Under the pieces are notes generated by a model that saw nothing but the letters and a program-made list of their open reading frames with translations, had not been told where the DNA came from and searched no databases. Shown in pieces: positions 22,095-52,527 of a stretch of 64,000 bases of DNA. Positions within the stretch are counted from its first letter, which is position 1; each line of letters begins with the position of its first letter. Source of the stretch: Alphaproteobacteria bacterium (GTDB lineage: Bacteria > Pseudomonadota > Alphaproteobacteria > UBA8366); NCBI GenBank assembly GCA_028281325.1, contig JANQKC010000029.1, positions 62,001 through 126,000 on the forward strand. The letters are read 5' to 3'. Both the position numbers and the translations under genes were made by a program.

Positions 22095-22125
22095 AAAACG
22101 GCCCTTCGGAAGAACCGAAGGGCCG
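22095..22125 (-). terminator. Terminator hairpin for the leftward phasin gene
   Basis: An 11-bp perfect stem (22099-22109 with 22115-22125) has a 5-nt loop. On the minus strand it is followed by TTTTCTGT, fitting intrinsic termination of the phasin transcript. On the plus strand no T run follows, though the hairpin may also slow transcripts from the methyltransferase. Confidence 0.75.
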
Positions 22126-22165: not shown

Positions 22166-22684
22166 TCAAGCCACCGGCTGCTTCAGGATGGTCTTGATAT
22201 TCTCGTTGACCTGATCCTGGATCGGCTCAAGCGCCTCGTTGGTGGCCTTCACCGTGATATCGTTGATCTTCTTGCCTTCGGCGACAAGCGTATCGATGCT
22301 CGCCTTCGTGTAGCCGGTCTGAACGTCGACAACGTCCTTCAACGTCTTGGCGGCAAACATGGCCTGCGCGGCTTCGACACCCGCCTCGGCGGAGACCTGG
22401 GCGAGATTGAAATACGCCTTGCCGATGGTTTCGGCGTTCTTGGCCCACAGGTTGCTGGCCTTCACGATGGCTTCGACGTTCTTTTGGCTCATAGCCGCCA
22501 TTTCGTCATACCCGTCCATGAGGGACTTGCTCGCCTTTTCCACCTGATCTTTGGTCATGGTAACCGCCTGTCCATAGGTTTCCGTAGAAGCTTTAACGAC
22601 TTGTTCGACTGTCTCCTTGCCCGCGGCAACGGCCTCTTCGACCTGCTTCAAATCAGCGCGGGCGGCTTTCGCTTTGGTAGCCAT
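22166..22684 (-). CDS. Phasin family protein (polyhydroxyalkanoate granule coat)
   Basis: A 172-residue, almost wholly helical protein without Cys. It has the phasin features: an amphipathic helix with EMAAMSQKNVEAIVKASNLWAKNAETIGKAYFNLAQ and AMFAAKTLKDVVDVQTGYTKASIDTLVAEGKKI. It coats PHA granules and limits their size. The ATG at 22684 has GGAG 7 nt upstream; an extension to 22822 is promoter sequence, not coding. No PHA synthase gene is in the window. A promoter flanked by repeated operators precedes it. Confidence 0.92.
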   Translation of the reverse strand: MATKAKAARADLKQVEEAVAAGKETVEQVVKASTETYGQAVTMTKDQVEKASKSLMDGYDEMAAMSQKNVEAIVKASNLWAKNAETIGKAYFNLAQVSAEAGVEAAQAMFAAKTLKDVVDVQTGYTKASIDTLVAEGKKINDITVKATNEALEPIQDQVNENIKTILKQPVA

Positions 22685-22775: not shown

Positions 22776-22846
22776 TGCGATGCAGCATAAGCTGTATATG
22801 GCACTTTCCTTGACCATGTCAACTAATTTATTGCGGTGCAGCATAA
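22776..22846 (-). promoter_or_regulatory. Phasin promoter flanked by PhaR-type operator repeats
   Basis: On the minus strand TTGACA (22822-22817) and TATACA (22798-22793) are 18 bp apart, a good sigma-70 promoter. Two 15-bp direct repeats differing by one base (TGCGATGCAGCATAA at 22776-22790, TGCGGTGCAGCATAA at 22832-22846) lie on either side, one over the expected start site and one upstream of -35. Each holds TGC-N3-GCA, close to the CTGC-N3-GCAG site reported for alphaproteobacterial PhaR. A third TGC-N3-GCA is at 22854-22862. Confidence 0.7.
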
Positions 22847-23129
22847 TTTATTTTGCGCCGCACCTGGGAGACTCCCTTCCTATTTCCCCGCCGGTAATCC
22901 GTTGACTCCCGCCGCCGTCACTGACGTCCAAAGAACTACATCGTAAGAATTACTAGCAGCGAAAGGATTGCAGAAGGTACGATATGGAGTTAACCAGTCA
23001 CAGTTAAACTTATATTGCGAAATCAGCGAGATATCAGCCAAGAGCCGATAGACAATTAACGATAACTTTATTACGTTCCTTTAGAGTTTGGCGAAATCGA
23101 ATCTATCGGATTCGGTAAATAGGGAAAAC

Positions 23130-51777: not shown

Positions 51778-52527
51778 TTAGTCTCGGTTTCGTCGATTAA
51801 TAACAAACGCTTGGATGTTCAATACTGCGTTCGCCACATGGTCATATATGTATTTCCCGTAGAACTGGTTTTCGAAACGCCACTTCGTATTCAGTAGCGC
51901 GATTTTCGCCAATCCACCCCAGAATTTGTCAAACGCCCATGTGCCTAATGTCTCTTTATAAGGTTCGACCTGACCGCTTTGCGCGTATTTTTCGTAGTGA
52001 TACCGCATGGTTTGAAGCGGTTCCCAATCCAAATCTCTAATCGTGATTTGTTCGCCATCTCGATTTGGGAATCTCCCGTTGGCGTCCGGAGGGTCTAATC
52101 TTAATGTAAATATTCCTTCTACTTCTTCAGTAATTTTGTAGTGGATAGCGTTTTTATGATGAACAACACATGCCAACTCATCATCAATATCAATTATAAA
52201 AAAAGGATAGGCGAATGAATATTCTTTATTTATTTTTGCATTATATGCTTCAGCGCAGCAAAATATGTATTTGCTATTCTTAGATACCCTTACTTTAAAT
52301 GGGTTCACCCAAATCCCGCGTTCCTTGCCGATCCAGATTTCCGGATTTGATTGGTTCCGCACGATTGCCAAATCGGCGTAGTACCAGCCCATTCGGATTT
52401 CGTCTTCATTGTACAAGACAATGCAGAGGTCGCGGTTCGGTACGGGAATCTTCGTAAGTTCCTGTTGCCACATGCCCAGTGGAAACATGTCGTCGACATG
52501 CCAGTCTTCCGCTTTGTTCTCGGCCAT
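51778..52527 (-). CDS. AT-rich orphan gene of unknown function
   Basis: A 249-residue protein I do not recognise. It is rich in Asn, Ile, Lys, Phe, Tyr and Trp, unlike its neighbours, and its DNA is visibly AT-rich (above all 52100-52290), which suggests transfer from another source. There is no signal peptide or clear membrane helix. Notable segments are IVLYNEDEIRMGWYYADLAIVRNQ, VNPFKVRVSKNSKYIFCCAEAYNAK and PFFIIDIDDELACVVHHK. AGGA lies just before the ATG. It sits between the REP-like repeat and dnaE2, as cargo genes often do. Confidence 0.75.
   Translation of the reverse strand: MAENKAEDWHVDDMFPLGMWQQELTKIPVPNRDLCIVLYNEDEIRMGWYYADLAIVRNQSNPEIWIGKERGIWVNPFKVRVSKNSKYIFCCAEAYNAKINKEYSFAYPFFIIDIDDELACVVHHKNAIHYKITEEVEGIFTLRLDPPDANGRFPNRDGEQITIRDLDWEPLQTMRYHYEKYAQSGQVEPYKETLGTWAFDKFWGGLAKIALLNTKWRFENQFYGKYIYDHVANAVLNIQAFVINRRNRD

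Follow-up and report, generated by a model that had tools for sequence, protein, structure and literature searches.

At the locus analyzed here, a protein that coats granules of polyhydroxyalkanoate (PHA) is predicted to be made only when PHA is present. The locus is part of a 64,000-nucleotide stretch of DNA (in the following, the window) from an alphaproteobacterium of the UBA8366 lineage (assembly GCA_028281325.1, contig JANQKC010000029.1, positions 62,001 to 126,000 of the forward strand) and centers on a gene for a 172-residue phasin (minus strand, 22166..22684, ATG at 22684). A sequence-only reading of the window had proposed that repeats around the promoter of this gene are operators for the regulator PhaR. 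By analogy with characterized systems, the results described below make it very probable that the one Phasin_2 gene found in the genome is transcribed from a promoter under PhaR control, which stays repressed until PHA titrates PhaR.

Results

The encoded protein matches the Phasin_2 family PF09361 (E 1.5e-24, 86.6 bits, cut-off 24.9) and TIGR01841 (43.5 bits, cut-off 30.2), in agreement with the phasin assignment made from the letters, and scores below the equivalog cut-off of TIGR01985 (51.8 versus 99.7). No other protein of the genome matches Phasin_2 at E 0.001 or better.

Read on the minus strand towards the ATG, the upstream region consists of an auxiliary core, a distal box, the hexamer TTGACA, the sequence CATATACA, a proximal box and a leader of ~100 nucleotides. 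The two 15-mers that had drawn attention to the region, TGCGATGCAGCATAA in the proximal box (22776-22790) and TGCGGTGCAGCATAA in the distal box (22832-22846), are borne out in both letters and coordinates: a single base distinguishes them, their starts lie 56 bp from each other and they widen into a 23-nucleotide repeat with 83% identity. Both contain a TGC-N3-GCA core (proximal, TGC-GAT-GCA, 22776..22784; distal, TGC-GGT-GCA, 22832..22840) and the third core noted at 22854 is also present (TGCGCCGCA, TGC-GCC-GCA, 22854-22862), its center lying 22 bp upstream of the distal box. The two main boxes have AT-rich arms (the left ones ending in TTTTG and TTTAT, the right ones being GCATAA), whereas just one of the two arms is of this kind in the auxiliary box. 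The PhaR consensus TGCRNYGCASMA reported for Bradyrhizobium on the basis of DNase I footprints on two phasin promoters and of six other bound promoters (PMC6201568) is matched exactly by the proximal box on both strands and by the distal box on one strand, and at 11 of 12 positions by the auxiliary box on either strand. A box matrix gives scores of 21.8 for the proximal box (center 22780), 26.1 for the distal box (center 22836) and 13.6 for the auxiliary box; because this matrix was built from related phasin upstream regions, its scores at such promoters are circular, while the phaA, phaJ, clpB and mmgR sites discussed below lie outside the training set.

The promoter is sigma-70-like: the -35 element TTGACA (22822-22817, minus strand) is followed after 18 nucleotides by TATACA (22798-22793), as originally proposed. 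These hexamers and the spacer are present as described; the assignment of the -10 element is less settled. Within CATATACA (22800-22793, minus strand) the alternative CATATA (22800-22795) starts two bases upstream of TATACA and gives a spacer of 16. Because NATA[TA]N hexamers occur mostly at a spacer of 16 or 17 in the pooled related and class-wide promoters described below (50 of 73 occurrences), and because CATATA is common to the window and its sister genome, the true -10 element may be CATATA rather than TATACA. A scan for consensus promoters listed no site here, since its rule demands a final T in the second hexamer and neither candidate has one. From the hexamers, transcription is predicted to start near 22786-22788, which would place the proximal core over the start site at approximately +3 to +11 (or +5 to +13 with CATATA as the -10 element), the center of the distal box at approximately -50, upstream of the -35 element, and that of the auxiliary box at approximately -72.

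Several tests confirm that this arrangement is real and far beyond chance. The window holds 19 TGC-N3-GCA motifs, three of which start within 78 bp at the phasin promoter (P 0.004 under random placement). Among 20,000 order-1 simulations of the 445-bp intergenic region, at least three cores occurred in 0.01% and a pair of 15-mers with at most one mismatch in none. Exact copies of TGCNNTGCANCATAA occur at only three sites in the 5.1-Mb genome, i.e. the two phasin boxes and one site ahead of phaA. When one mismatch to TGCNNTGCANCATAA is allowed, the matches taken together (10 on the forward and 9 on the reverse strand, versus 5 and 10 for the reversed control) are hardly enriched, and exact matches alone served as evidence. 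Matrix scores of at least 10 are reached at four sites in the window, three of them the phasin-promoter boxes and the fourth at 52253; in control sequence, four sites of score at least 12 were found in 129,278 positions.

The layout is conserved among relatives. Phasin homologues are present in 43 of 59 genomes, own genome included, and 44 distinct upstream regions were compared, counting the own region and two from named records, after four near-duplicates and six loci without a tblastn match had been dropped (the five weak paralogues L083-L086 and L088, together with L074, for which the homologue search had given E 3.2e-23). Among 576 three-letter palindromes, TGC-N3-GCA ranks first in these regions, with 99 sites versus 4.9 expected and at least one in each of the 44. 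Exact TGCRNYGCASMA is found in 42 of the 44 (121 matches versus 0.38 expected), the exceptions being L076, in which no match appears even when one mismatch is allowed, and L079, which has an unread base in its box. Symmetrised frequencies over 95 related sites reveal A/T-rich arms, with T/A at +/-7 in 94%. The sister genome, whose phasin is 91% identical, keeps the three cores, TTGACA and CATATACA, and the middles and flanks of the boxes vary. Two boxes 28-70 bp apart occur in 40 of the 44 regions (37 at 50-67 bp, three at 30-31 bp), and an auxiliary box lies 19-23 bp upstream of the distal one in 10 of these 40, including the window and the sister genome; at the background density of the matrix almost none would be expected in that range.

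Across the class, phasins were found at E 1e-12 in 163 of 290 genomes. From these 163 genomes 90 loci were taken, 30 as supplied and 60 chosen down the E-value list, so that the sample is not random; a few genomes give two loci, and at least one locus is shared with the set of relatives (L055 and L167). At least two boxes are present at 77 of the 90 loci, one at 12 and none at one, and 63 loci have a pair 55-67 bp apart. In 57 of these 63, TTGAC lies 10-19 bp beyond the center of the distal box, versus 0.5% of control windows, and when both sets are pooled TTGA lies 13-17 bp from that center in 100 of the 103 promoters whose paired boxes are separated by 48-70 bp. The wide, promoter-bracketing layout is thus the commoner form in the sampled alphaproteobacterial phasin loci, in which the closer-set rhizobial boxes (18-29 bp) are a minority. 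In total, the proposal that PhaR-type operators mark this phasin promoter is upheld both by the exact match of its two boxes to TGCRNYGCASMA and by the conservation of boxes at phasin promoters class-wide.

The sequence-only reading named the lack of phaR in the genome as evidence that would count against it; phaR is present. The genome's one match to the DNA-binding domain PHB_acc_N (PF07879) lies in a protein that also contains PHB_acc (PF05233) and that scores 151 bits against the equivalog model TIGR01848 (cut-off 109.45). No relative of this protein was found in the PDB at E 0.1. Transcribed divergently from phaR are a short unassigned gene and a class III-like phaC, which has phaA and phaB downstream of it. 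The synthase (L024:5868-7368, G000:C15) scores 160 bits with TIGR01836, under the cut-off of 365, and the 156-residue product of the gene that precedes it in the place of PhaE matches nothing in Pfam or NCBIfam. The genome encodes a second PhaC_N protein, which is class I-like, at C36:264721, and no box of score at least 14 was found in the 16 kb around its gene (L025). A search for PhaZ that covered the PHB_depo_C depolymerase family gave no match in the genome.

The symmetric pattern WTNNTGCRNYGCANNAW occurs at 15 sites in the genome versus 2 for the reversed pattern, and 9 of the 15 are ahead of the genes for the phasin (2), PhaA, a PhaJ-like protein (2), the small RNA MmgR, PanB, a DUF2889 protein and ClpB. 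The sequence-only reading had suggested searching for the 15-mer ahead of phaR and phaC. No box of score at least 12 lies within 320 bp ahead of phaR, in the region shared with the class III-like phaC, and none of at least 14 was seen around the other phaC, as given above; boxes are found instead ahead of phaA, the phaJ-like gene and mmgR. The box ahead of phaA has the highest score computed for any box in this genome (29.5). For phaA, phaR, phaJ and clpB, the 30 best loci among the matches, own genome included, were compared. A box of score at least 12 is present ahead of phaA in 25 of 30 loci and ahead of phaR in 12 of 30 (score at least 18 in 4 of 30). The phaJ-like gene encodes a MaoC-family hydratase (PF01575; L245:986-1462, G000:C15:52668-53141), which we read as PhaJ-like, and is preceded by tandem boxes 19 bp apart; among its 30 loci, 22 have a box of score at least 12 and 10 have tandem boxes at 19-20 bp, own locus included in both counts.

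Because PhaR represses mmgR in S. meliloti, the C32 region around two boxes at C32:16187-16231, one of which is a WTNNTGCRNYGCANNAW site, was searched with Rfam. This search identified an MmgR-type small RNA (RF00519, 64.5 bits, gathering score 41, E 8.2e-13) on the minus strand of an apparently convergent intergenic region (L026:6101-6175, G000:C32, start 6175). Boxes lie at L026 6192, 6224 and 6326, and box centers precede the predicted RNA by 17 and 49 bp. As the boxes were located before the search for MmgR, its position downstream of them is close to an independent confirmation, and it suggests that MmgR is a PhaR target outside Sinorhizobium.

Discussion

Combining the observed boxes, hexamers, phasin and phaR genes, the conserved layout and the boxes at other PHA genes with binding, repression and titration as inferred from homologous systems, we suggest the following scheme. 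With little or no PHA in the cell, PhaR would sit on two palindromes, the proximal one overlying the start site and the distal one just upstream of the -35 element, and probably also on the weaker auxiliary site, and the filled operators would exclude RNA polymerase from the phasin promoter. Once PHA granules form, PhaR would be drawn onto the polymer, the operators would be vacated and phasin would be made. As soon as phasin covers the whole granule surface, PhaR would return to the DNA and shut phasin synthesis off again. The two boxes may cooperate in this.

For Ralstonia eutropha and Sinorhizobium meliloti, the model in which polymer titrates PhaR is accepted (PMC12542648, PMC3570403, PMC12849132), and our findings leave the accepted PhaR model unchanged. 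The closest parallel is R. eutropha phaP1, at which PhaR footprints have been reported upstream of the -35 element and around the start site (PMC12849132), as for the boxes here; for this reason the layout itself is not new. The R. eutropha palindrome, YTKNTGCRNYGCANMAR, for which up to three mismatches are reportedly accepted (PMC12849132), has one mismatch to the proximal and two to the distal box when read from the letters. R. eutropha differs in being a betaproteobacterium and in having a predicted extra site inside the gene, and the available parts of that report mention no counterpart of the auxiliary box at 20-23 bp upstream of the distal box. In Bradyrhizobium diazoefficiens, the footprinted 12-mers of phaP1 and phaP4 share the consensus and derepression in a phaR mutant is strong (PMC6201568); the phaP1 boxes, however, are at -101 and -72, i.e. 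29 bp apart, and flank the -35 element only (PMC6201568, PMC10888616). In S. meliloti, the AniA/PhaR targets phaP1, phaP2 and mmgR carry the same palindrome with AT-rich arms, supported by electrophoretic mobility shift assays and point mutations, with two boxes per phasin promoter (PMC12542648). There, the boxes are 18 and 28 bp apart by their tabulated coordinates and again flank the -35 element only (PMC12542648). Moreover, the polyhydroxybutyrate synthesis genes of S. meliloti are reported as not regulated by PhaR, with weak binding at phaR/phbAB (PMC12542648), whereas in the present genome strong boxes lie ahead of phaA and the phaJ-like gene. A class-wide survey of PhaR box layout was not found in the accessible parts of the open-licence literature, and those of PMC6761214 and PMC9049629 contain nothing on box layout.

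Three observations weigh against this scheme. First, no box of score at least 12 is present within 320 bp ahead of phaR, a region shared with the divergent class III-like phaC; autoregulation of phaR, which does not define a PhaR operator, has been reported for other species (PMC12542648). Second, PhaR is not always a repressor, as it is reported to activate R. eutropha phaP3 (PMC12849132). Third, phaR was not found in four of the 43 phasin-containing genomes (G009, G016, G019 and G031). These four assemblies are 84-96% complete and gaps are the likely explanation. Their three kept loci (L079, L064 and L045) carry phasin boxes, and L044, from the fourth genome, was left out because it nearly duplicates the boxed upstream region L043. 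Among the 59 genomes, 39 have both genes, four phasin only, eight phaR only and eight neither, a co-occurrence that leans in the expected direction and that, being confounded by incomplete assemblies and a single-protein phasin query, is not proof.

How PhaR would act from its two boxes can be understood in more than one way. PhaR units 56 bp apart might touch, holding the promoter clamped in a small loop; repression would then depend on both boxes and on a fixed distance between them. Pair spacings fall mostly at 55-61 or 64-67 bp, a loop of PhaR dimers with cooperative binding has been proposed for R. eutropha (PMC12849132) and a sigmoid binding curve has been reported (PMC3570403). However, a fixed spacing is equally explained by the fixed place of each box beside the promoter (the TTGA at 13-17 bp in 100 of 103 cases), spacings of 17-23, 29-32, 47-48 and 63 bp occur as well, and either S. 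meliloti box alone is reported to be enough for binding in vitro (PMC12542648); on balance we regard an obligatory loop as rather unlikely. Helical phasing was also considered as the cause of the spacing and was set aside, since the observed spacings have no constant phase at 10.5 bp and promoter geometry accounts for the main mode. Alternatively, PhaR could bind both boxes with divided effects, the proximal box repressing through occlusion of the start site, the distal box (at approximately -50) being activating or neutral, with tuning as the result. The activation of phaP3 in R. eutropha, for which contact between PhaR at an upstream site and RNA polymerase has been proposed (PMC12849132), the reports that B. 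diazoefficiens PhaR acts both ways (PMC6201568) and the higher score of the distal box (26.1 versus 21.8) are consistent with such a division. R. eutropha phaP1, which has the same layout, is nevertheless repressed (PMC12849132), and in both S. meliloti and B. diazoefficiens mutation of phaR strongly derepresses phasin promoters with two boxes (PMC6201568, PMC12542648), although for B. diazoefficiens phaP1 derepression was just 2.4-fold in another growth condition (PMC10888616). We judge a division of effects improbable. That the boxes serve another regulator with a similar TGC-N3-GCA palindrome, with PhaR incidental, could be argued from the four genomes in which phaR was not detected and is very hard to reconcile with the exact match to a consensus resting on PhaR footprints (PMC6201568) and with boxes ahead of phaA, the phaJ-like gene and mmgR, of which mmgR is targeted by PhaR in S. 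meliloti (PMC12542648).

With PhaR-dependent repression as the favored reading, a single sequence reading becomes a testable regulon in an alphaproteobacterium whose five named relatives found are all metagenome assemblies. The PhaR switch and the promoter-flanking layout are already known; the additions made here are modest, i.e. the weaker auxiliary box and the finding that the layout is commoner than closer-set rhizobial boxes in this sample. As a speculation, and one that we consider doubtful, the ancestral alphaproteobacterial phasin switch could be a PhaR array of distal and proximal boxes, often with an auxiliary box, that clamps the promoter at either of two preferred spacings approximately one helical turn apart, and beyond the rhizobia PhaR could couple the PHA state to precursor supply through phaAB and phaJ, to MmgR and, in some lineages, to ClpB.

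Other candidate sites and features

Two PhaR-type boxes 31 bp apart precede the gene for the ClpB disaggregase (L255:1478 and 1509, G000:C32:106459). Boxes are found at 7 of 30 clpB loci, own locus included, with a score of at least 18 in 6 of the other 29; ClpB was therefore rejected as a general PhaR target and would be lineage-restricted at best. Single boxes are located ahead of panB (L248:1509, C15:233226, score 23.8) and of the DUF2889 gene (L254:1509, C32:68920, score 24.4). In S. meliloti, a weakly bound PhaR site has been reported at the panC-panB operon (PMC12542648). A box-like site of score 16.4 lies ahead of a HlyD-family gene (L027:5962, G000:C20:33951), and PhaR is reported to repress a HlyD-family gene in B. 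diazoefficiens (PMC6201568).

The remaining WTNNTGCRNYGCANNAW sites were treated as chance or unexplained: C9:14060 and C14:163720 lie inside open frames and have no matrix score of at least 10, C33:26788 (13.5) and C39:103723 (15.3) score weakly, and no clear target is apparent for C24:231602 (19.9) and C29:107024 (18.9), which overlap or abut the ends of genes. In the window, the site at 52253 (score 19.8) lies within a 249-residue minus-strand open reading frame and is probably a chance occurrence.

Rfam gave no match in the whole window at gathering thresholds. On the 3' side of the phasin gene is a terminator-like hairpin (22099..22117, minus strand) with 8 pairs followed by TTTTCTGTCG; with one found and 1.3 expected from shuffles, it is weak evidence on its own. 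Finally, a box-like palindrome of score 19.8 at L033:5086 (G000:C14:183081) lies in an AT-rich stretch and precedes an open frame on the plus strand by ~180 bp.
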